Positions 8,089 through 21,091 of a stretch of DNA of 22,769 nucleotides are shown in pieces. The translations under genes and the position numbers were made by a program. The stretch covers positions 1 to 22,769 of the forward strand of contig CALZJV010000208.1 of the NCBI GenBank assembly GCA_945787595.1. Reading direction: 5' to 3'. The notes beneath the pieces were generated by a model. It saw nothing but the letters and a program-made list of their open reading frames with translations. It did no database searches and had not been told where the DNA came from. The DNA comes from an uncultured Desulfobacterales bacterium. GTDB lineage: Bacteria > Desulfobacterota > Desulfobacteria > Desulfobacterales > JAFDCJ01. Every line of letters starts with the position of its first letter. Within the stretch, counting starts at the first letter, position 1.

Positions 8089-8334
8089 GCAACGATTTGC
8101 GGCCGGCTTCAGGTAATCAATCCTGATTCCGGTCTTTTATTTTCAAAGAAGACAGTTGCCCAAACTGATAGTTGGGTTAAAAGTTCTGGAAAATTAAAGA
8201 CTTTCAGATGAAATATATAACTGACAAGGTGGGTTTATAAAGTGTGGGAGCGGGCACGAAAATCCACACTCAGCTCAAAATGTAGATTACTAATTGCGCA
8301 ATCTATATTCCTTACTGTTCCTGGTATATAACTA

Positions 8335-8536
8335 GTTTCCATCCATAAATGGTCTTTTTGCCCAATCTCGGCGTCAATCGGCGCGTTTGATTGTGCGACG
8401 TAGCCAGCTACGTCTCCGCACAAACGCTTGTCCGCACAAACGCTTGATTTCCTTGACCTTGGACAAAAATCCACATTTATGAATTGGAAACACCATCAAG
8501 TGCCCAACTGATTTTAACCGATTTGTGGATGGGCAC
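8335..8536 (+). mobile_element. MITE-like element, copy 1 (TSD TAACTA)
   Basis: A 202-bp non-coding element. Its left end, GTTTCCATCCATAAATGG, is an imperfect inverted repeat of its right end (complement reads GTGCCCATCCACAAATCGG). TAACTA lies directly on both sides (8329-8334 and 8537-8542), a 6-bp target duplication. The middle folds into a long hairpin around ACGTAGC-CA-GCTACGT with outer arms GCGTTTG.../...CAAACGC. Compared with copy 2 it has a 16-bp tandem duplication in the right arm (TCCGCACAAACGCTTG). It carries no transposase, so it would have to be moved in trans. The reverse strand has an open frame, but this is a hairpin artefact. Confidence 0.8.
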
Positions 8537-8642
8537 TAACTAGGAAAAAAATTTCTTAATATTGAAAAAATGTTTTATTCCCAATCTTTCTCATCATCTT
8601 GACTAAATACCACCATGTGGTTATTTTGATATCATTCATAGT

Positions 8643-8900
8643 CAGGCTACCGTTGTCGATATCGGTTCGGATTCAGGCTTCGACGCTCTTATTGCCTCAA
8701 TGGATGATATTTCCTTGTGGACGGGTTGAATTGCTGGAGGCCTGCTGGAGGCAGAGCTTCTCAGCGCCGTGAGCGCTTCCGGGTTTGAAAACGCCGAGAT
8801 CGTGCAAAAACACAATATCTTCGAAGGGGTTCCCAATCCATCCAGTGCGCTTGACTTTGGCATGCAGGGTGTAAGCCTGCGGACAAACAAGCATAGTTAG
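8643..8900 (+). pseudogene. Deleted ArsM-like methyltransferase relic with UGA at a Cys position
   Basis: One frame reads TVVDIGSDSGFDALIAS, a class I SAM-binding motif I as in arsenite methyltransferases. After only nine more residues (MDDISLWTG) comes a TGA at 8727-8729, and the same frame continues IAGGLLEAELLSAVSASGF and ends SSALDFGMQGVSLR. In ArsM relatives the second block is preceded by Cys (C-I/V-A/S-G-A-L), a conserved arsenic-binding cysteine, so the UGA replaces exactly that residue. Roughly 100 or more residues between the blocks, and the N-terminus, are missing, so this is a relic. A weak hairpin (8742-8754, loop TGGAG) follows the TGA. The present stop codon is completed by the inserted element copy 2. 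Family call moderately sure; selenocysteine in the ancestor is an inference. Confidence 0.55.
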
Positions 8901-9086
8901 TTTCCATCCATAAATGGTCTTTTTGCCCAATCTCGGCGTCAATCAGCGCGTTTGTTTGTGCGACGTAGCCAGCTACGTCTCCGCACAACCGCTTGATTTC
9001 CTAAATCTTGGACAAAAATCCGTATTTCTGGATTGGAAACGCTATTGAGTGCCCAAACTGATTTTAACCGATTTGTGGATGGGCAC
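8900..9086 (+). mobile_element. MITE-like element, copy 2 (TSD TAGTTA)
   Basis: A 187-bp second copy of the element at 8335, in the same orientation and nearly identical, without the 16-bp tandem duplication. TAGTTA flanks it at 8894-8899 and 9087-9092; this is the reverse complement of the TAACTA around copy 1, so both insertions used the same hexamer in opposite orientations. Removing the element and one hexamer restores CAT-AGT-TAA in the methyltransferase relic frame, so it landed in that gene's stop codon and changed TAA to TAG. The end sequences GTTTCCATCC and GGATGGGCAC are kept. Confidence 0.8.
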
Positions 9087-9303: not shown

Positions 9304-9870
9304 ATGAAAGTAACAAAACGGGTTGCACTCTATTTCTTCGGCATATCTCTTATTTTGCTGGCAGGTGACTTCTCCCTGTGGGGGGGAGAGGACCACCTGG
9401 CAAAGTTTGGAGTAAATAGGTTAGACAAAAAGATTGATGCCCCGGAATTCACCCTTCCGGATTTAAGGGGCACAAAAAGAAGCCTGAGTGAATTTCGGGG
9501 AAAATTCATCATGTTGAATTTTTGGGCCACCTGGTGACCATACTGCCTCAAGGAGAGGTCCTCTCTGGAAAAGATCCATCAAGATTACAGAAGCAAAGGT
9601 CTGGTCATTTTGGCCGTCTCTATTGATCAGGGAAGCGGTGAAAAAGTTAGAAAGTTGGTGAAAGATTATGTCAAAAGCCATAACCTGACTTTCCTGAATT
9701 TACTAGATCTCAAATCTGAACTTGCCGCCCAATATGGTGTGCGTGGAATCCCGATGAATTTTCTCATAAACCCCCAGGGCAAAGTCGTCGCCGTTGCCAG
9801 CGGCTATCGGGAGTGGGAAAGCGAAGAAGGCCGGAAGGTGATCGAACTGCTAATTTCTGAAGCAAATTGA
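9304..9870 (+). CDS. Selenocysteine-containing TlpA/thioredoxin-like protein (UxxC active site)
   Basis: A 188-residue thiol-disulfide oxidoreductase if the TGA at 9535-9537 is read as selenocysteine. Before it: a signal peptide or membrane anchor (MKVTKRVALYFFGISLILLAG), then APEFTLPDLRG and the strand FIMLNFWATW. After it, in the same frame and without further stops: PYC, an AVSIDQG strand, KSELAAQYGVRGIPMNFLI with the cis-Pro loop, and NPQGKVVAVASGY. This is the complete TlpA/ResA fold with CPYC written as U78-P-Y-C81. A SECIS-like hairpin follows at the expected distance. The start has a ribosome binding site (AGAGGT). The protein would act outside the cytoplasm in disulfide or peroxide reduction; partner unknown. 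An automatic caller will split it into 9304-9537 and a fragment near 9610. The alternative is a point nonsense mutation, but the hairpin argues strongly against it. Confidence 0.88.
9552..9566 (+). promoter_or_regulatory. Bacterial SECIS-like hairpin with GGUC apical loop
   Basis: Bases 9552-9556 (GGAGA) pair with 9562-9566 (TCTCT), with one G-U pair, leaving the loop GGTCC. The E. coli fdhF SECIS that binds SelB has an AGGUCU loop; here the apex is A-GGUC-C. The GGTC begins 22 bases after the first base of the UGA, against about 21 in fdhF. Position, stem and loop all fit recruitment of SelB/Sec-tRNA to the UGA at 9535. The element lies inside the coding sequence, where bacterial SECIS elements are found. 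Confidence 0.82.
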
Positions 9871-10068: not shown

Positions 10069-10371
10069 AACCATCTCGAAGCCGTTGCCGAAGCCGACGG
10101 CCATACCCATAAGAAATCTGTTGAAACCGTCGAAACCTTGCTCGAACTCATTAAGTCAGAACTGGAATCCGGCGATGACGTTATGATCTCCGGCTTCGGT
10201 AAATTCTGTGTGAAAAACAAAAAGAAACGAAAAGGCAGGAACCCGGCCACCGGAAAAGATCTGATTCTAGCACCCAGAAAAGTCGTCACATTCAAATGGT
10301 CTGGGAAACTGAAAGAAAAACTGAAAACAAAGAAAAGACGCGTCAAGAGCATAAAAAATATTGAACTTTAA
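10069..10371 (+). pseudogene. IHF/HU-family DNA-binding protein gene with lost N-terminus
   Basis: The frame encodes NHLEAVAEADGH, HKKSVETVETLLELIKSELE, then the HU/IHF signature: SGFGKFCVKNKKKRKGRNPATGK, followed by LAPRKVVTFKWSGKLKEKL. It matches IHF-alpha-like proteins almost end to end. The usual start (M-x-LTK) is missing: a TAA at 10066-10068 stands where the conserved Lys before Asn-His would be, and no ATG, GTG or TTG follows in frame until a TTG at 10138, which lacks a ribosome binding site and would drop the first helix. The beta-arm and the DNA-intercalating Pro region are intact, so decay is recent. It may be a pseudogene or a shortened protein from the TTG. The lone copy sits apart from pheT-type neighbours. 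Confidence 0.7.
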
Positions 10372-10934: not shown

Positions 10935-11351
10935 ATGATCGATTTACTTCGCGATAAAAAAGTTGGTTTTCCACCTGGAAGCATCACGGCAAAACAATCA
11001 GCCGATACAGGCATGGCAATGGTCCTTATCTGTCTATTAATTACATTTTTTAACAATAGTAAGATTGCATTGTCCATTTCTATTGTACTTTTGATCCTCA
11101 ATATGACTATCCCCAAAATCTATATGCCTCTGGCTAAAATATGGATCGGATTTTCGATAATTGTTGGCAATGTCGTCTCTAGGATATTACTATCGATAAT
11201 TTTTTATGTCTTGGTCACCCCAGTCGGTTTCATCAGAAAGCTTTTTGGAGCCGACCCAATGCAATTAAAAAAGTGGAAAAATGACAACGACACTGTCTTC
11301 CGAGAGCGTAACCATTTATTTCAGGCAAGAGACATCGAAAAACCATATTAA
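10935..11351 (+). CDS. SxtJ-family membrane protein
   Basis: A 138-residue membrane protein with a ribosome binding site (GGAGGAA) 7 bases before the ATG. Hydrophobic segments lie at about 27-60 (two helices, MVLICLLITFF and ALSISIVLLIL) and about 65-105 (IWIGFSIIVGNVVSRILLSIIFYVLVTPVGF), followed by a cytoplasmic tail with GADPMQLKKW. The order, length and the motifs WIGF..iG...srill...fy....P.g...k..g.d....k match the SxtJ-type small membrane proteins found beside NodU/CmcH carbamoyltransferases. Its biochemical role is unknown; a scaffold or anchor for the carbamoyltransferase is a guess from conserved neighbourhood. A DUF5989-like gene starts 12 bp downstream. Confidence 0.8.
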   Translation: MIDLLRDKKVGFPPGSITAKQSADTGMAMVLICLLITFFNNSKIALSISIVLLILNMTIPKIYMPLAKIWIGFSIIVGNVVSRILLSIIFYVLVTPVGFIRKLFGADPMQLKKWKNDNDTVFRERNHLFQARDIEKPY

Positions 11352-11363
11352 TAGGAGCCATAA

Positions 11364-11513
11364 ATGGAATTTTTAACTGATTTATTTGGATTTCTAAAAG
11401 AGCGCAAAAAGTATTGGTTATTACCGCTTATCTTGACCCTGCTTTTGCTTGGAGGGCTAATTGTCTTTACCAGCGGTTCAGCCATTGCTCCTTTCATTTA
11501 TACAATATTTTAA
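11364..11513 (+). CDS. DUF5989-like single-helix micro-protein
   Basis: A 49-residue protein preceded by AGGAG at proper spacing and 12 bp after the SxtJ-like gene. MEFLTDLFGFLKERKKYWLLPLI is a short amphipathic start with basic residues. LTLLLLGGLIVFTSGSAIAPFIYTIF follows as one membrane helix with the conserved small-residue end. The pattern F.FL..RKK.WL.P......G.L......s..APFIY is that of the DUF5989 family, which travels with SxtJ and carbamoyltransferase genes. The gene is easily missed because of its size. Function unknown; probably a small partner subunit in the membrane. Confidence 0.8.
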   Translation: MEFLTDLFGFLKERKKYWLLPLILTLLLLGGLIVFTSGSAIAPFIYTIF

Positions 11514-11783
11514 ATTGAGTGGGTCCGATCAGATTAATGAAGTGAGCCGTTGGTGGAGTTCAGCTTTATCAGAACTCTATTTATGAATAGAATTTGAAAA
11601 ATAGGCAGGTCTTTGCTGACTTTTTACCATTTGAACGACTCTTATGATTTCGGCCAAATGCAGGTAACTGGAATCTTATAATTAATATTGCTGGCCAGAT
11701 CATAAAATGAACAGATGAAAATCTCTTGTGCTTTTTTTCGTCAAAATTCCGGTTGATTGTAATTTTTTTTGGAGGTTTAATCC

Positions 11784-13646
11784 ATGCCAGAAGCCATTTT
11801 AGGATTATCAGCCTTCTATCACGATAGTGCTGCAGCGTTGTTAATAGATGGAAATATTGTTGCGGCTGCTCATGAAGAGAGATTCACTCGAAAGAAGCAC
11901 GATTCGTCATTTCCTTCGAATGCAGCCAGATATGTGTTGAAAGAAGGGGGGCTCTTCTTGGACGATCTGCACGCTGTCGCGTTTTATGACAAGCCGTACC
12001 TTAAGTTCGAAAGGCTGCTGGAAACATATCACGGGTTTGCCCCGCAAGGCCTCAAAAGTTTTACCTCTGCTATACCGGTCTGGATCAAAGAGAAGCTTTT
12101 TATGAAAAAAATGTTAAAAGACGAACTGGATAACATTGGCAGGGGGATTACCCAAAAATTTCTCTTTCCCGAACATCACCTATCGCACGCAGCAAGTGCC
12201 TTTTACCCCTCGCCATTTGATGAAGCCGCTATTATTACGGTTGATGGTGTCGGCGAATGGGCGACCACGACGCTTGGCAAGGGCGAAGGCAATGAAATAA
12301 GAATCCTGCGCCAGTTAGATTTTCCGCACTCCTTAGGACTTTTGTATTCAGCATTTACCTATTTCTGTGGGTTCAAGGTGAACAGCGGAGAATACAAGCT
12401 GATGGGGCTGGCGCCATATGGAAGGGGAAACTTGGAGAGAGCAAAAAAATGGAAAGAAATCGTTCTGGATAAGCTGGTAGATGTACGTGAAGATGGCTCC
12501 CTCTTATTGAACATGGATTATTTCAATTTTGCTACCGGATTGACCATGTGTGATGAAACAAAGTGGGAAGCTTTATTTGGTATTCAAAAAAGAGAACCGG
12601 AAAGTGAGCTGACACAGCCTTATATGGATCTCGCCTGGGTAATTCAAAATATAACTGAAGAAATTGTTCATCGCATGGCGGTCACGGTAAAAGAACTCAC
12701 GGGAAGTAATTATTTAGTTATGGCTGGCGGAGTCGCCCTTAACTGCGTCTCAAATGGCAAGTTGCTGAAAAGTGGCCTTTTTAAAGATATCTGGATTCAA
12801 CCGGCTGCCGGAGATGCTGGCGGCGCGGTTGGGGCCGCTTATGCCGCATGGCATATTTGGAAAGGTAACGGCCGAAAGTCAAGTAATCCTGTGGATGCAA
12901 TGCAAGGAGCTTATTTAGGTCCTGAATTCAACTCCAGCGATTTCAGTCGGGTCGCCATTAAATATGATGCGCCTTACAAAGAATATTCCGATTTCGAAGA
13001 ACTATGCAGGGATGTCGCCAAATTGATAGACCAAGGAAACGTCATCGGTTGGTTTCAGGGTAAAATGGAATACGGACCAAGAGCCTTGGGGAACCGAAGT
13101 ATTGTTGGCGATCCCCGAAACCCGGAAATGCAAAAAAAGCTCAATTTGAAAATTAAATACCGGGAGGGATTTCGTCCGTTTGCACCATCTGTATTAGAAG
13201 AAGATATAAATGAATACTTTGATTTAAATTCCCCAACACCTTACATGCTTCTTGTTGCACCTGTCCAAGAGAAGCGCAGAAAGCCGGTTCCTGATAACTA
13301 TGAGGATCTTAAGCTCTATGATCGACTCTACCACCTGCGGTCTGATATTCCCGCTATAACCCACGTGGATTTTTCTGCAAGAATTCAAAGCGTAAATAAA
13401 AATACCAATGAAAAATACTGGCGGCTGATAAAAGCATTTAAAGACTTAACCGGCTATGGCGTGGTCGTAAATACCAGCTTTAATGTGAGAGGTGAGCCCA
13501 TCGTATGCACTCCAAAAGACGCATATATTTGCTTTATGAGGACTGAAATGGATTATTTGGTAATGGGAAACATGCTATTCGATAAAAGCCGACAGCCAAA
13601 ATGGGAAAAAGACAATTCCTGGAGAGATTTGTACGAACTGGATTGA
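11784..13646 (+). CDS. Carbamoyltransferase of the NodU/CmcH family
   Basis: A 620-residue enzyme, a typical length, with a strong ribosome binding site (GGAGG) before the ATG. The N-terminal Kae1-like domain begins ILGLSAFYHDSAAALL and has EERFTRKKHD, the metal site EHHLSHAAS (His131, His135) and VDGVGEWATT. Further on come GLLYSAFTYFCGF, GEYKLMGLAPYGR and the nucleotide loop MAGGVALNCVSNG. The C-terminal domain has GKMEYGPRALGNRSI (from about 424), FRPFAPSVLEE and VVNTSFNVRGEPIV. The family moves a carbamoyl group from carbamoyl phosphate through carbamoyl-adenylate to a hydroxyl of a sugar, antibiotic or lipid; the acceptor here is unknown. Its neighbours are SxtJ and DUF5989 upstream and SGNH and methyltransferase genes downstream, which suggests tailoring of an exported glycan or small molecule. 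Confidence 0.93.
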   Translation: MPEAILGLSAFYHDSAAALLIDGNIVAAAHEERFTRKKHDSSFPSNAARYVLKEGGLFLDDLHAVAFYDKPYLKFERLLETYHGFAPQGLKSFTSAIPVWIKEKLFMKKMLKDELDNIGRGITQKFLFPEHHLSHAASAFYPSPFDEAAIITVDGVGEWATTTLGKGEGNEIRILRQLDFPHSLGLLYSAFTYFCGFKVNSGEYKLMGLAPYGRGNLERAKKWKEIVLDKLVDVREDGSLLLNMDYFNFATGLTMCDETKWEALFGIQKREPESELTQPYMDLAWVIQNITEEIVHRMAVTVKELTGSNYLVMAGGVALNCVSNGKLLKSGLFKDIWIQPAAGDAGGAVGAAYAAWHIWKGNGRKSSNPVDAMQGAYLGPEFNSSDFSRVAIKYDAPYKEYSDFEELCRDVAKLIDQGNVIGWFQGKMEYGPRALGNRSIVGDPRNPEMQKKLNLKIKYREGFRPFAPSVLEEDINEYFDLNSPTPYMLLVAPVQEKRRKPVPDNYEDLKLYDRLYHLRSDIPAITHVDFSARIQSVNKNTNEKYWRLIKAFKDLTGYGVVVNTSFNVRGEPIVCTPKDAYICFMRTEMDYLVMGNMLFDKSRQPKWEKDNSWRDLYELD

Positions 13647-13832
13647 GAGAGGGAAACTTTAATTAAGATAAATATTTTAATGAATTCATAAACACTTGAA
13701 ACAAGTCGAAGGTCAAGCAACACCGAGGCGGCGCCGGTAATGCGAGTATCGATGCTACGGCCACCATTGCCATCTCAGTCCTCGAGCTATACTACAGGTA
13801 GTTATTCAAACTCTGGGAGAACTTAACGAAAT

Positions 13833-15059
13833 ATGCGACATCTGACAAAGAAAAAGGGATTTCTTACAATCATCCTGGCGATCAGCCTTTTGGTTGGCGC
13901 CGAGATTTCCGCCAAGATCATAGTGTATTACGTTCTGGATATCAAGGACAGCAATTTCTATCACTACTACCGGAAAGACCCAAAGCTTAGACTTCTTATG
14001 TGGAGCAAAAATTTGGAACCACATCCTTACTTTGGTTTTGAGAGCAAACATATCAGACAGTTTGAAAAGCTTCAGAACGAACTCCATCCAAACGATTTTG
14101 TGATTGGCATATTAGGTGGCTCAGTTGCCGGAATGTTCGCTAACTATGTTTCGAAACGACCTGAGTATTTTGATAAATTAAGGGAAGCAATACCATCTTT
14201 TGGAAGCAAGAACCTCCGAATAGCAAGACTTGCCATGGGTTCGGCCAAACAACCTCAGCAATTTTTTATCGCTACCTATTTTTTAGACCAGTTAGACTTA
14301 ATGATTAATATCGATGGTCTCAATGATGCCTCCATTGGACACTACCTTCCTGTATATCCGCTGGAGTTTCCGCTTTTGTCTTTAAAATTTTATCAACGCA
14401 CAAATCAGGGAGGCATGTATGCAATCTTTGGACGTCTAGCTCGCTGGACCTACAATATGGTAAATGTTTTTCCCCGCCGCGTTCCTCTTCTTTCACGAAG
14501 CAGTTTGTATTTCGTCTTATGGTATGGGACCCACGACATACTATACAAAATTGTGAAATGGTTTGAGGCAGCATACTATGCCGCCGCTATAGGAAGCCAT
14601 CAATCAGAAGTGGTTAAAAGCACCACACCCACTGAAATAATGGAAAAGAGACTAAAAATCTGGAAGAGATATACTGCCCTGCAAAATGACATTGTGGGAA
14701 AATGGCAATGGAAACCTGTATTCTTCTTCGTTCAACCTAATCAATATTTGAAGGATTCTAAGATCCTGTCAGATGAAGAAAAGAGAACAGCAATTAATAA
14801 CAGGAGAGCTGAACACACCCATGAGATGATGGTGGGCTTGAAAAGAGGGCTTCAGGATTTGCAAAACTCGGGTATCCCCATTTTTGATCTCACGAGAATA
14901 TTCTCAGATACTAGGGAAACAGTATATATAGATGACGTGGGTCACTTAAACGATCGGGGAAACCATATCATGGCCGAAGAAATTGTGGCTGTTATTCTTA
15001 GGCGTCAAGCAGAAAATGCTCCGCCATCACCGAAGGATGCTCAGACAGGAGAGCAATAG
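13833..15059 (+). CDS. Membrane-anchored SGNH/GDSL-hydrolase-like protein
   Basis: A 408-residue protein with an N-terminal signal anchor (KKKGFLTIILAISLLVGAEI). It then has an SGNH-type block I, VIGILGGSVAG (putative nucleophile Ser97), a block with INIDGLNDAS around residue 156, and a C-terminal block V, IDDVGHLNDRGNHIM, with putative Asp368 and His371. This is the pattern of extracytoplasmic SGNH hydrolases, which act as esterases or O-acetyl transferases on glycans, and such proteins recur beside carbamoyltransferase/SxtJ/DUF5989 genes. The substrate is not known. It lies about 190 bp after the carbamoyltransferase in the same direction. The ribosome binding site is weak (GGGAGAA), but no better start exists. 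Confidence 0.72.
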   Translation: MRHLTKKKGFLTIILAISLLVGAEISAKIIVYYVLDIKDSNFYHYYRKDPKLRLLMWSKNLEPHPYFGFESKHIRQFEKLQNELHPNDFVIGILGGSVAGMFANYVSKRPEYFDKLREAIPSFGSKNLRIARLAMGSAKQPQQFFIATYFLDQLDLMINIDGLNDASIGHYLPVYPLEFPLLSLKFYQRTNQGGMYAIFGRLARWTYNMVNVFPRRVPLLSRSSLYFVLWYGTHDILYKIVKWFEAAYYAAAIGSHQSEVVKSTTPTEIMEKRLKIWKRYTALQNDIVGKWQWKPVFFFVQPNQYLKDSKILSDEEKRTAINNRRAEHTHEMMVGLKRGLQDLQNSGIPIFDLTRIFSDTRETVYIDDVGHLNDRGNHIMAEEIVAVILRRQAENAPPSPKDAQTGEQ

Positions 15060-15117
15060 TTTGTAAGACTGTAACGGAGGGTGATAAGAACTAGAAATTA
15101 TTCGTATAGATGAGGAG

Positions 15118-15158
15118 ATTTAATAAGGCGGTCGTTCAGCCTGTTGGACTTATTAAAT
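15118..15158 (+). promoter_or_regulatory. Perfect 10-bp inverted repeat in the leader of the methyltransferase gene
   Basis: ATTTAATAAG (15118-15127) and CTTATTAAAT (15149-15158) are exact complements around a 21-base GC-richer loop. The structure ends 16 bases before the ATG at 15175 and directly before the likely ribosome binding site (CCTGAGGA). As RNA it could control translation; as DNA it could be an operator. No T-run follows, so it is not a standard terminator. Confidence 0.45.
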
Positions 15159-15174
15159 TACCTGAGGATACAAT

Positions 15175-16197
15175 ATGTTTGATAATGATAAGAATTTTAT
15201 TACTCAGAACATTGATATGTTTTCTTGTCCAAAGTGTGGCGGTGACTTAACTTTTAATAATGAGAGTTTTAATTGTTTTAGTTGCCATCAGCCTTATCAA
15301 GTTTTTGATGGTATTCCATCGTTATTTTGGCCAAATGATTGGGACTCTTCGAAAGAAGACGTAACTGACAAAATCAAATCGTTTTATGAAAAAACCCCCT
15401 TCCCTAACTACGATGATTTTGACAAAGTAGATAGTCTAATTAACAAAGCAAGAAAAGGTCTTTTCGCGAAATTATTGGATGATCAAATTCCTTTTGGTAC
15501 TCGTATTTTAGAATGTGGTTGTGGCACCGGACAGTTGACAAACTTCCTATCTATTGCCAACAGAACCGTAATCGGGACAGATATTTGCATGAATTCACTA
15601 AAAATGGCTAATGCATTTAGAGAAGCAAATGATTTAAAAAGAGCGCATTTTTATCAAATGAATCTATTTCGCCCATCCTTCAAACCACAAAGTTTTGATT
15701 TGGTGATTTCAAACGGAGTTCTTCATCATACCAGTGCCCCCTTTTTAGCATTCAAATCAATATCCAATCTCGTTAAACCAAATGGGTACATATTAATAGG
15801 TCTCTATCATAAATATGGAAGATTAGCTACCGATCTTCGCCGGGTAATATTTAACATGACAAAAGATAAGTTAAAATTCCTGGATCGGCGGGCAATAAAC
15901 AAAGATATTAGCCAATCTAAAAGGAATGCTTGGTTTATGGACCAATATAAGAATCCTCACGAATCTAAACATACAGTCGGAGAAGTTTTACATTGGTTAG
16001 ATAGTACCAAATTCATATTCATCCATAGTATACCTAAAACAGTGCCATTTGAAAGTATTGATGAGTCAGAAAGATTGTTTAAACCAGATAGGTTAGGTAA
16101 TCAGCTTGAAAGATTTATTGTAAATATTGGAATGATATTTACAGGACATAGAGAAGGGGGATTTTTTACAATCATTGCTAAGAAAGCAAAAAGGTAA
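15175..16197 (+). CDS. SAM-dependent methyltransferase with N-terminal zinc ribbon
   Basis: A 340-residue class I methyltransferase. A Trm112-like ribbon opens it, with Cys18, Cys21, Cys34 and Cys37 and then YQVFDGIPSLF. Motif I is RILECGCGTGQL (from about 112), an acidic residue in GTDICMNSLK follows, and the motif IV region is LVISNGVLHHT, with later LVKPNGYILIGLYH. About 100 residues at the C-terminus are not family-typical and include a late hydrophobic patch (FIVNIGMIF). It is the last gene of the carbamoyltransferase cluster and probably methylates the same product; the acceptor is unknown. It is visibly more AT-rich than the carbamoyltransferase gene, suggesting a different origin. A group II intron fragment begins about 10 bp past its stop. 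Confidence 0.85.
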   Translation: MFDNDKNFITQNIDMFSCPKCGGDLTFNNESFNCFSCHQPYQVFDGIPSLFWPNDWDSSKEDVTDKIKSFYEKTPFPNYDDFDKVDSLINKARKGLFAKLLDDQIPFGTRILECGCGTGQLTNFLSIANRTVIGTDICMNSLKMANAFREANDLKRAHFYQMNLFRPSFKPQSFDLVISNGVLHHTSAPFLAFKSISNLVKPNGYILIGLYHKYGRLATDLRRVIFNMTKDKLKFLDRRAINKDISQSKRNAWFMDQYKNPHESKHTVGEVLHWLDSTKFIFIHSIPKTVPFESIDESERLFKPDRLGNQLERFIVNIGMIFTGHREGGFFTIIAKKAKR

Positions 16198-16206
16198 TTC
16201 ATGGCT

Positions 16207-16475
16207 ATCGAGATAGGGAGGAGCCTCACAGCTCCCCCCTCCCACACCACGCAGCATACGGGTCCGTACTGCGCAGTTCGGCTGATCAGAGGGGAACGAA
16301 AGTCCAAGTGATTCGAAGAGATCATCAGGCAAGGCGATATTAACCCACTTTACTTTGCTCATACGCCAGGGGCCTTTACGTGCACAGCCTGTCGTTACGG
16401 TATAGTTTCGCGACACTCCTCTTTTCAGGAGTTCACCCACACGGCTTTTTCGGTTTTTCTCTCCGAGCCGGAGGC
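16207..16475 (-). mobile_element. 3'-terminal fragment of a group II intron (maturase tail, domains V-VI)
   Basis: On the minus strand one frame reads LGEKNRKSRVGELLKRGVSR, then CARKGPWRMSKVKWVNIALPD and LFESLGL. This is the tail of group II intron maturases (R....L..LG......W...RKG.WR.....). After it, about 16246-16280 forms a long stem closed by GTACGG-ACC-CGTATG, fitting domain V. Next, 16207-16243 forms a GGGAGG/CCTCCC-type stem ending CTATCTCGAT, fitting domain VI and the intron 3' end. The reverse transcriptase, domains I-III and the 5' end are gone, so it cannot splice or move alone. The 3' end lies about 10 bp past the methyltransferase stop. The call rests on recalled intron patterns. 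Confidence 0.55.
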
Positions 16476-16999
16476 CATTTATCACGCAATAGCTCCAAAG
16501 TTTTTTGCGACAGGGGCACGTTACGGTCTTTAATGCCCATGTGGCCCATGGATTTTTGGACTTGGATAAATCCACGGGCGCTTTCGATATTTTCGACTTT
16601 CGTGTGAATACCTTCGGACAAGCACAATCCGCAGGAATAGATCGTGGTGAGGCAAGCCCGATAGCGTAGTCTCTCAATGTTGCTTAAAATCTCACGAACT
16701 TCATCACGGCTAAAGACGAACGGGAGCTTCTTTTCACGCCCGGGGCAGATAAACAGCAGCGTTGGCCAGGGGCGCTTAATGGTATTTTCATAGAAGAATT
16801 TGATGATGCACAGGGCGACAGTGCTGGTGCTGCGGCTCCATTTTTTAGCGTTTTTGCCGTACAGAGAGTAATCTCGCAGTTCCTCTGCGGTAATGCTGCC
16901 TGGGGATTTGCCGAAATGTTCGCACAGTTGGTGGACGGCAGTGACATAAAGTGTCAGAGTGCTATTGCTGTAACCTTTGAGTTGTAAGTCTTCGATCAT
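16476..16999 (-). pseudogene. Truncated tyrosine recombinase/integrase, catalytic Arg lost
   Basis: The minus-strand frame from 16999 starts with a SAM-like core-binding domain (MIEDLQLKGYSNSTLTLYVTA, then LRDYSLYGKN) and continues into a catalytic domain: FVFSRDEVREILSNIERLRY, TTIYSCGLCLSEG, KVENIESARG, KDRNVPLSQKTLELLRDKW. In active enzymes CGLCLSEG reads TGLRLSE, where Arg is catalytic box I; here it is Cys. After RDKW (about 16476) the match ends and intron sequence begins; the HxxR, H/W and Tyr boxes are absent. The frame runs on to a stop at 16433 through intron DNA. Such integrases often accompany IS91-type elements, and an IS91 relic lies nearby but on the other strand. Not functional. 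Confidence 0.75.
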
Positions 17000-17701: not shown

Positions 17702-17847
17702 CTACAGTCAAAGTCGTTGCATGAATCGACAGATGCTCAAGCCGGCCTTTTTGCATGTTAGCTATAATATATACATAAATATTTATATTGAGGCTCACAT
17801 TTCAATTGTATAGGGTATTCGTAATTCTCCAAGTTGGATTGATCGAT

Positions 17848-18588
17848 ATGTTAAATGCGTGCCCTACACAAATTGATTTAGATGTTTATCAGCCACGCAA
17901 CCCAAAGGCAAGCGCCTATTACAGCTGCGTCGAGGATCATTTTGAACAGCTGGAAACTGTCTGGGACGAACGTTATCAGAGCCGCTTCGGCTTTTGGCGG
18001 CCGTATGTGACCGATGTCATCCAGCGCTATTTGGATTGCGGGGATTTACATTTCGGTTTTGCGCGAGTTAAATGTGAAGACTGTGGACACGAATATTTGC
18101 TGGCGTTTTCTTGCAAGCGCCGACATTTTTGTCCCTCCTGCCATCAGAAGCGGGTGGTGGAATTCGGCGAATGGTTATGCACAGAAGTGCTAAAATATGT
18201 GCCGCACCGGCAGTGGGTTTTCAGCATTCCCAAACGGCTGCGGATCTATTTCATGTTTGACCGGAAGCTGCTCACAAAACTGAGCCGTTGCGCCTGGAAA
18301 GTGCTGAACTTGTATTTAACCCAAGCGATACCCTATGACGATGCCAAAGCCGGTGCTGCGGTTGCCGTACAGAGCTTTGGTGATTTTCAAAATTTTAATT
18401 CCCACCTGCATGTAATCTGTACAGACGGTTGCTTTTATGGCAACGGCTCGTTCAAGGCTTGCCCGACACCACATCCAAAAGATTTAGAGGATTTGTTCCG
18501 CTATGAAGTCTTTAAGATGCTAAAACTGAAGGTAAAATCAATGATGTTGTGATCGAGAACATGATGTATTTGGGCCACAGCAGCTTTA
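17848..18588 (+). pseudogene. IS91-family transposase, frameshifted and 3'-truncated
   Basis: From the ATG at 17848 the frame has the IS91 N-terminus, a zinc-ribbon transposase domain (VKCEDCGHEYLLAFSCKRRH, then FCPSCHQKR), the VFSIPKRLRIYFMFDR block, and an HUH-type His-x-His at residues 186-188 (HLHVICTDG). Near 18525 one base appears lost: the listed frame ends LKVKSMML at 18552, while the shifted frame continues EGKINDVVIENMMYLGHSSF as in relatives. All similarity stops at about 18588, so the catalytic tyrosines and the terminal end are gone. A longer start at 17788 is possible but adds an unrelated hydrophobic stretch. Not functional. Confidence 0.85.
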
Positions 18589-19209: not shown

Positions 19210-21091
19210 TTATTGTTCAAGCAAATCAATTTTATTCAGATCCTGCGCAAGATCCGATAAACGTTGAGGGCCAAGAATGTCGGCTCTCTGTAGGCCAGAT
19301 TCAGGATCCCATCCCCGAATCTTATAAAATTCCTTCAACATCCTGTCGTAAGTTTTCCGGTCAAGGGTTTGCCCTTTACGACTTATTACTTCCTCTCCGC
19401 GACCCGGTACGATTACATCCGGATTGAGGTAAATCTCTTTAACCGGGTTTGTAAAATTGAACTCGGCAGGAAAATCATCAAATACGTTCGCCATATTTAT
19501 TGAGACCGGCCTCATCGATTTCAATCCCTGTGGCTGCATGGAATATCCGGCTTTCCATTGTCGGGTCCCCGACATGATCGGGGGTGTTCCATGAAGACAT
19601 GATCGGCCAGACCGCATCGCATAAGCCGAGACTGTCTTTTACGATGGTTCGATCGATTATTTTGGCCGCCGCACAGGCTTTCCCTTCGTGCGTCATCAAA
19701 TCCCATGCTTTTTCATGCCCCCAGAACTTTGAGGCCGCAGCTCTGAAAACATCTGCAGTTACAGGTGAGGATTTGGGGTCATTTAAATAGCGGACCCACT
19801 CTCCCAAAAGTAGGCTCACCTCGTGAAGCATCGATATGGGTTGCCTTGGTTCAAAAGCATATAGCAGGGCATTCGTCAAATAGGCCCGTCCGGAGTATTC
19901 GGCCGCACTACCGACATCCGACACTTCATCGGAAAAATTCGCTCTTGCTTTTTCACCCAGTTTTTCTCCTGCCCGTAACAAGCCTTCGGCTAAAATGTCG
20001 CCAAATCCTTTTCTGTAGGCAATCATATCGGCAAGTTTATCAAAAAACGACAATTTCCCAATTTCTTCGATATGGAGGCCCGTCTCCTCCGGCGTAAGGT
20101 ATCCTGACGCAAAACAGGCATCCAGCCAGGCAATGATATTATACATCTCCATGGTGCAGATCGACAGGTCATTACATAATCGCGTGGCATCAAAGGCCGC
20201 CTCTTCAGGTTCATCGTTTCGATCCACAATCCATTCGTGATAGACAAACACGGCCTGGCACATACCGATAATGTCTTTTCCGGAGGCCGCCCGTGCAACA
20301 AGCCGGAATTCGCAATCGATGGCACATTGATAACAGTGGGCGGTTTTTGCTGAAGCGCCTGTTTCCCGGCAGGCAGAGTCAGGTTTGGCTGGACCTTGGC
20401 ATAAATGATATACTTTTTTATTGAGTTCCTTGAGTCTGTCCGGCTGTGCTGTTGAGGGCCCGCCGCTGCCCATTACGGCTATTGCCTTGAGGTTTTTGGA
20501 ACCGAACACCGCACCGAACCCGCCTGTGACGCTACCGTCATTTTCCGTCATAAGGTTGGCGCTGCGACTCAAATTTTCACCTGCAACACCGGTTGTTATA
20601 AATCTGACCCTTTTCCCATATTCATTTTTCAATATATTACCTGCAGCATATACACCCTTGCCCCAAAGCGAAGATGCGTCATGAATCTGAACGTTCTTGC
20701 CATGGATTAATAAATAAATCGGCTTGCTCGATCGTCCGTGTATGATAAGGCCGTCATAGCCCGCTATTTTCAGGTAGGGTCCAAAAAAGCTGCCGATGTT
20801 GCCATAGCAGAAACCTTCAGGCATCAACATGGGAGATTTGCCGATTACCATGCACCTGGCAGCACCCTGTGTGCCGGTTGCTACCAGGGGGCCGGTCATA
20901 AAGATCAAGCGATTTTCCGGATCAAAGGCACTGGTGCCGGGTAGAACCTCTTCCCAGTAAATTCGGGTGGCGATCCCGCGGCCGCCTAAAAACCGATCGG
21001 CATAGGGCATGGTATCCATTGTCGATGTTCGGCCGTTGGAAAGATCTACCTTGAGAATCTGTCCACACCATCCATGTAGGCCTGTTTTCAT
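19210..21091 (-). pseudogene. Aldehyde:ferredoxin oxidoreductase with C-terminal deletion/frameshift
   Basis: The minus-strand frame 21091-19478 encodes 537 residues of the tungsten AOR family. It starts MKTGLHGWCGQILKVDLSNG with ribosome binding site AAGGAGA, and has FLGGRGIATRIYW, LIFMTGPLVATG and NIGSFFGPYLK. The [4Fe-4S] cysteines are C253, C256 and C260 (HCYQCAIDC) and C491 (DSLGLCD). The frame stops after NKYGERI. A second frame (to 19210) continues DDFPAEFNFTNPV, YLNPDVIVPGRG, SRKGQTLDRKTYDRMLKEFY and RGWDPESGLQ, the normal AOR C-terminus. Relatives have about 15-18 more residues (FNLQRA...RG) at the junction, so a small out-of-frame deletion removed them. All cofactor ligands remain. 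As read it yields a C-terminally shortened protein, which may be inactive. The family oxidises aldehydes to acids with ferredoxin and tungstopterin. Confidence 0.82.

Follow-up and report, generated by a model that had tools for sequence, protein, structure and literature searches.

Judging from the passages available of each source, selenoproteins of the Prx-like or TlpA-like kind with a UxxC motif have been on record since 2005-2006. UxxC Prx-like proteins were described from marine metagenomes (PMC1088965, PMC2398784), a "Prx-like thiol:disulfide oxidoreductase" was reported in Syntrophus, Geobacter and Desulfotalea (PMC1794560), and the Prx-like selenoprotein family appears again in PMC9312934 and PMC5029168. 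A 2026 review lists, in the part available, UxxC selenoproteins of PF00578, cd02966 and PF08534 (PMC13188914). The accessible passages of a paper on nine new families (PMC12013277) make no mention of TlpA, thiol, disulfide, thioredoxin or Trx, and those of PMC8318568 hold no TlpA/thioredoxin-type wording.

The DNA analysed here, hereafter the window, is a stretch of 22,769 nucleotides from an uncultured Desulfobacterales bacterium. We conclude, with a probability of roughly nine in ten, that positions 9304-9870 of its forward strand hold one gene, in which a downstream hairpin lets the UGA at 9535 be read as selenocysteine (Sec), and whose product is an exported reductase of the ResA/TlpA fold. 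A previous sequence-only reading of the window had presented this gene as a probable undescribed selenoprotein; "undescribed" stands for the orthologous group, but not for its kind, since UxxC proteins of the PF00578/TlpA-like type were already published. The 188-residue protein matches no NCBIfam profile over its cut-off, and its 99.8 bits against the ResA profile (NF002854, cut-off 170) leave it outside that family. Possibly new are the group to which the gene belongs (clade A below) and the placement of a second group (clade B) beside cytochrome c maturation (ccm) genes.

Read-through of positions 9304-9867 yields 188 residues, followed by a terminal TGA (9868-9870). The only break in the frame is an internal TGA at 9535-9537, codon 78, in the context FWATW-U-PYC, after which the frame stays open for 110 codons, as the sequence-only reading had claimed; its placement of this proposed selenocysteine codon at the first active-site cysteine agrees with our alignment, where residue 78 falls on the first Cys of the ResA CxxC motif. 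In the list of open reading frames (ORFs) of at least 80 residues, made without read-through, the frame is represented solely by an 86-residue piece starting from a TTG at 9610. When C is written for U, the protein matches the AhpC-TSA (PF00578, 94.1 bits, cut-off 26) and Redoxin (PF08534, 81.9 bits) domains, and both matches span the UGA. Two positions are invariant in an alignment of 38 rows: Cys81, the predicted resolving cysteine of the UPYC motif (TGC, 9544-9546), and Pro150 in a GIP context (9751-9753), which we take to be the cis-proline position of thioredoxin-family folds. The AlphaFold2 model obtained from the 38-row alignment, with C modelled for U, has a mean pLDDT of 91.8, and the best solved structures retrieved with Foldseek are ResA and TlpA (best E 1.7e-15). 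The domain, the position of the CxxC, the conserved Pro and the thioredoxin fold all place the protein in the ResA/TlpA superfamily. Its hydrophobic N-terminus (9304-9399), with a weakly modelled helix at about residues 5-20 (block pLDDT 61-69), suggests a signal peptide or membrane anchor, and hence export of the product.

A search of protein databases gave 402 homologues among 720 candidates, 120 of which were listed. It had been anticipated that standard gene callers would split the gene, and the closest public proteins indeed end, start or show a W or a gap at codon 78: P0021 (83% identity over 41% of the query) stops precisely at NFWATW, a further eight (P0093, P0094, P0095, P0098, P0099, P0103, P0106 and P0121, 106-114 residues long) start some 20-25 residues past U, P0002 and P0007 lack the stretch containing the site, and P0003, P0004, P0005 and P0028 carry a W there, which, as these four were seen as protein records, is consistent with gene calling under TGA=Trp. 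Homologues with Cys at residue 78, named beforehand as a source of support, were found among more distant proteins: CPYC occurs in 32 of 121 proteins (the 120 listed plus P0001), one of which is P0001 with C for U, so 31 are Cys rows. Plasmids gave 401 matching records, all below 60% identity; a ResA/TlpA-type annotation stands at the match in 18 of the 20 listed, and of the other two, one lacks any annotation and one lacks a feature at that place. A single locus was matched among viral contigs, at 26% identity.

At the DNA level, 29 loci were recovered from GTDB species contigs, and the eight that entered the codon check (L001-L008, the other loci, L009-L029, being at 27-41% identity) all have TGA at the codon-78 site. 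Their records correspond to Candidatus Desulfatibia vada, Desulfobacterales (three, L003 among them), Syntrophus, Deltaproteobacteria, Thermodesulfovibrionia (L007) and Nitrospirae. The 389 genomes of the class of G003 (G001-G008 are the genomes of L001-L008) gave 68 rows at E <= 1e-25; all six close rows (58-76% identity) have one TGA, and TGA is also present in 13 of the remaining 62. The 155 genomes of the class of G005 gave four rows, with TGA in the sole close one, and a search with the L007 protein in the 230 genomes of the class of G007 gave 40 TGA rows in 36 genomes, 39 of them at the top of the list. After removal of copies (L038-L042, L067 and L071, dropped from the codon check onward as copies of L001-L007), the fetched loci comprise 60 rows with TGA at residue 78 and 28 Cys rows with TGC or TGT; a TGA row of G383, from the search of the class of G003, lies outside this 60-row check. 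All 60 Sec rows follow the pattern U-x-[WY]-C, which is absent from the 28 Cys rows. Two of the marks by which a bacterial selenoprotein is recognised are seen here, an in-frame UGA where homologues have the catalytic Cys, and a UGA kept across independent species. At L046, L050, L052 and L053, from four genomes of the class of G003, a Cys-TlpA gene lies closely downstream of the Sec-TlpA gene, and L005 contains, at about 3254, a second, truncated copy of the clade A gene (clades are defined below), in which the UGA and the hairpin are kept and stops follow soon after.

A quick tree was made from 142 of 192 rows, for which one in four of the non-CPYC Cys proteins from the protein search was kept, and with P0003, P0004 and P0005 assigned as Sec from the W at the site in their protein records; L107, a clade B-like row with TGA, was off the tree by E-value. 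The window gene falls in clade A, which contains 11 Sec rows (SH-aLRT 99), eight of them known as DNA, and which groups with nine CPYC Cys proteins (support 92). TGA is present in all eight clade A genes checked as DNA, that is, the window gene and seven others at 58-77% identity. Clade B comprises 51 Sec rows (support 90), with TGA in 51 of 51, and it is spread over 36 of the 230 genomes of the class of G007 and a minority of genomes of the class of G003. This tree requires two changes of the Sec label; 59 of its 139 inner branches are weak, and when only the strongly supported ones are counted, a single change is forced. Two origins of Sec among the ResA/TlpA rows would be the shortest reading of the tree, and a single origin is also compatible with it. 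A fuller scenario, to which we give somewhat less than even odds, would be that two separate Cys-to-Sec conversions led to long-lived Sec lineages, with no reversion to Cys among the rows of the tree, where clade A arose from CPYC ancestors and serves some disulfide target, and clade B, in part of its range, replaces CcmG.

This last point derives from the neighbourhoods of 38 clade B-type loci (L007, L008, L116-L135 and L137-L152, with L149 off the tree and some genomes present twice). Nine of them (L008, L130, L135, L140, L144, L145, L150, L151 and L152) lie in or beside cytochrome c maturation genes, which were confirmed by Pfam for L008 and L144 and recognised by gene clustering for the remaining loci. 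In L150 the ccm genes are on the opposite strand; L119 and L128, with a single related assembly gene each, were excluded from the nine. The gene order in L144 is U-TlpA, CcmF, CcmH, a zinc-ribbon protein, CcmE, an ABC ATPase in the place of CcmA, CcmB and a CcmC-like protein. The clade B genes beside ccm genes are probably Sec-CcmG, of which a full-text search limited to the open-licence literature returned no report. A PCYCGC-family protein is also encoded near clade B-type genes at nine loci, including L139:8530-9036, the one on which PF13798 was tested; the available part of PMC13188914 names, among selenoproteins, a CYCXC family that bears this Pfam number.

Given that more distant Sec relatives sit with ccm genes, as in L144, the window protein could itself act as CcmG in System I cytochrome c maturation, its first Cys replaced by Sec. 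We regard this as unlikely, because ccm genes were not recognised among the subset of window ORFs scanned, and no gene within at most 6 kb around the other clade A loci clusters with ccm genes, on contigs that are mostly of 3.4 to 6.8 kb (only those of L003 and L005 are longer, and L005 was viewed around its truncated copy). Moreover, the two clades occur together in G002, where L002 is of clade A and L113/L144, accompanied by its ccm genes, is of clade B; a difference in role is therefore probable. In L001, the clade A gene is located downstream of Fur-family and rubrerythrin genes. The product of the gene at 9304-9870 is most likely an exported thiol reductase, and clade A is best described as Sec-containing reductases of the ResA/TlpA type.

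Upstream of the gene, direct repeats occur in the window regions 8328-8507 and 8893-9056, with lengths of 103 nt (at 95% identity) and 77 nt (at 84%). Downstream, a frame without a clear start at about 10069-10371 (+) encodes what we take to resemble an HU/IHF DNA-binding protein, and L003 encodes a similar protein (8402-8737, minus strand) near its own copy of the gene. A gene cluster at 10935-16197 (+) follows, for an SxtJ-like protein, a carbamoyltransferase, a product of 408 residues that matches no Pfam family, and a methyltransferase, and then a partial tyrosine integrase (16433-16999, minus strand), a truncated IS91/ISCR-type transposase (17788-18552, plus strand) and an aldehyde ferredoxin oxidoreductase spread over two frames (19210-21091, minus strand), both matching NF007354 below cut-off, as by a frameshift or a sequence error. 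An Rfam scan of the window gave a single match at E <= 5, sR35 with an E of 4.2, dismissed as chance.

Downstream of the UGA, the sequence-only reading had pointed to a hairpin with a GGUC loop 22 bases away, and GGTC is located there, at 9557-9560, counted from the T of TGA. The apical hairpin, GGAGAG-GUC-CUCUCU (9552-9566, plus strand), our candidate SECIS element, pairs 9552-9557 with 9561-9566 through six pairs (five Watson-Crick and one G-U) around a GUC loop. The bacterial SECIS (bSECIS) model, as given in the available part of PMC13188914, requires a loop of 3-9 nt, a stem of 4-16 bp, a G in the first two loop positions and a distance of 16-37 nt from the UGA, and the window hairpin, with its GUC loop, 6 bp and 20 nt between UGA and loop, fits this geometry. 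The threshold of the model, a minimum free energy of -7.5 kcal/mol or lower, is reached by 9535-9572 (-7.5), but the minimum-energy fold of this segment is another hairpin, and the conserved one alone has -5.7. The RNA fold proposed as a check gave a divided result: the hairpin is better than expected from 200 synonymous recodings (p = 0.045) and is conserved in 8 of 8 clade A genes, but it is not the minimum-energy fold, and the region 9530-9600 folds more weakly than its shuffles (z = +1.8).

Within clade A, the hairpin bases GAGAGGTC-TCTCT are identical in all eight sequences, and the remaining position is C in seven and A in L004. An alternative window hairpin, GCCUC/GAGGU, was rejected as the conserved element, with 72.5% of clade A cells paired versus 97.9% for GGAGAG/CUCUCU. 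No covariation was detected in the clade A stem among these eight sequences, since its pairs hardly vary, and codon identity averages 0.64 and rises to 0.90 at the hairpin, which is weak evidence for clade A because another stretch scores 0.91. The hairpin of clade B is a different one, GGAAGG-AGUUG-CCUUCC; 99.3% of its cells are paired, and two pairs are changed on both sides, in six cells; none of 500 shuffles reaches that number of cells, and 54 of 500 reach that number of pairs. Its covariation score is 0.114, and sliding the partners by one column gives a higher one, 0.127. Codon identity in clade B peaks at the hairpin (0.87 versus a mean of 0.44), and the Cys genes have a mean of 0.41. 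In a comparison with 200 protein-keeping recodings, the best hairpin reached p <= 0.05 in 8/8 clade A, 47/51 clade B and 3/26 Cys genes, L107 and two Cys rows of L005 being left out by E-value. The best hairpin lies near the published bacterial SECIS spacing in all 59 TGA rows scanned, by a scan that was designed after the sequences had been inspected and that confined the spacing to about that range.

The TGA could also be the mark of a pseudogene, or of a sequencing or assembly error, where a TGC or TGT active-site codon turned TGA and the gene is either dead or read wrong. The window does hold other broken genes, namely the split aldehyde ferredoxin oxidoreductase, the truncated IS91-type transposase and the partial integrase, and a truncated second copy of the gene exists in L005, but we find a dead or misread gene very improbable: the seven close relatives checked as DNA, from separate genome records, all have the TGA and the hairpin, instead of the ordinary Cys and unconserved hairpin that would have spoken against a selenoprotein, and the 3' half of the window gene stays in frame, with a GC3 alike on both sides of the internal TGA (5' 0.52, 3' 0.51). 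An equally slim chance is left for a selenium-free reading, in which the UGA is suppressed or read through non-specifically, or serves as a regulated stop that yields two products, one short and one long. The weakness of the conserved hairpin in the window would suit such a read-through, but the UGA stands at the catalytic Cys position in 60 of 60 TGA rows, the hairpins are near the SECIS spacing, within the limits of the scan, and the genome groups concerned mostly have selA.

The machinery for Sec was searched for in the relatives. The genome with the closest copy (G353, 76% identity) has selA, selB, tRNA-Sec and selD. Its being the source species found no backing, as one window gene compared with it gave no DNA match, a negative that carries little weight. 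Among G001-G008, selA was found in 6 of 8 genomes, by a profile search of genomes whose completeness is not given, and it was not found in G004 (2.6 Mb) and G006 (2.0 Mb); selB is also over its cut-off in 6 of 8, and is absent at that level from G006, with two partial matches below it, and from G004, with weak matches only. A tRNA-Sec scored over the gathering score in G001, G006 and G008 (3/8, from no more than 150 scored candidates in each genome), and ARAGORN recovered tRNA-Sec in L033 (G006) and L034 (G001). For selD, 8 of 9 genomes (G001-G008 plus G353) are over the cut-off, the exception being G004, and in those eight selD itself has an in-frame TGA. Of the genomes with close copies in the class of G003, 4/6 have selA (not G004 and G006), as do 33/36 of those with TGA rows in the class of G007 (not G730, G752 and G762). 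Overall, selA occurs in 202 of 230 genomes of the class of G007 and 359 of 389 of the class of G003, and because it is nearly universal in both classes, its co-occurrence with Sec-TlpA is weak evidence. The least probable alternative, an organism-wide reading of UGA as Trp or Gly (code 4 or 25) with no selenocysteine, would account for the four public proteins with W at the site, as from code 4 gene calling, but TGA terminates 6 of the 13 listed window ORFs, the other 12 ORFs have no in-frame TGA (partly by construction), including conserved proteins of 1145 and 620 residues, a Trp at residue 78 would abolish the CxxC, and the relatives have Sec machinery.

Insertion of Sec at codon 78 is thus strongly supported on comparative grounds, by the conserved UGA, the domain, the hairpin and the Sec machinery in relatives. 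In the mechanism that we propose, SelA, SelB, SelC and SelD would decode the UGA at 9535 as selenocysteine, guided by the hairpin just downstream, and the product would be exported, either secreted or membrane-anchored. By analogy with ResA and TlpA, Sec78 would attack substrate disulfides, Cys81 would resolve the resulting selenylsulfide, and a membrane reductant of the CcdA/DsbD type would recharge the enzyme.

The locus would represent a conserved redox enzyme missed in annotation, the closest public copies being cut in two or carrying a Trp at the catalytic site, and it would add a Cys-to-Sec conversion whose Cys sister group can be traced. Its more distant Sec relatives suggest that one step of cytochrome c maturation depends on selenium and, if clade B does act in the place of CcmG, cytochrome c assembly would depend on selenium in those bacteria. 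Among described systems, the Prx-like thiol:disulfide oxidoreductase selenoproteins (PF00578, UxxC/UxxU; representative WP_010940744.1) share the domain and the UxxC with the window protein, a likeness judged by the definition of the family, which consists of domain and motif only and may span several subgroups. The thiol-disulfide isomerase-like selenoprotein (cd02966) and the Redoxin UxxC proteins (PF08534) share a TlpA-like or Redoxin domain and the UxxC, by their labels only. NF041054 (ResA-like WAxxUGC, WAxxUGC_long) has a ResA-like domain and, from its name, a Sec after the WA motif, but differs in that the window protein reaches 60.8 bits against its cut-off of 300, in its UGC motif instead of UPYC and in a profile of 354 positions. 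Finally, ResA and TlpA (PDB 1st9, 1jfu) share with the window protein the fold, with TM-scores by target length of 0.83-0.89 for the listed ResA chains and 0.74-0.76 for TlpA, the position of the CxxC and the invariant Pro150, and differ from it by the Cys that they keep where the window protein would have Sec.
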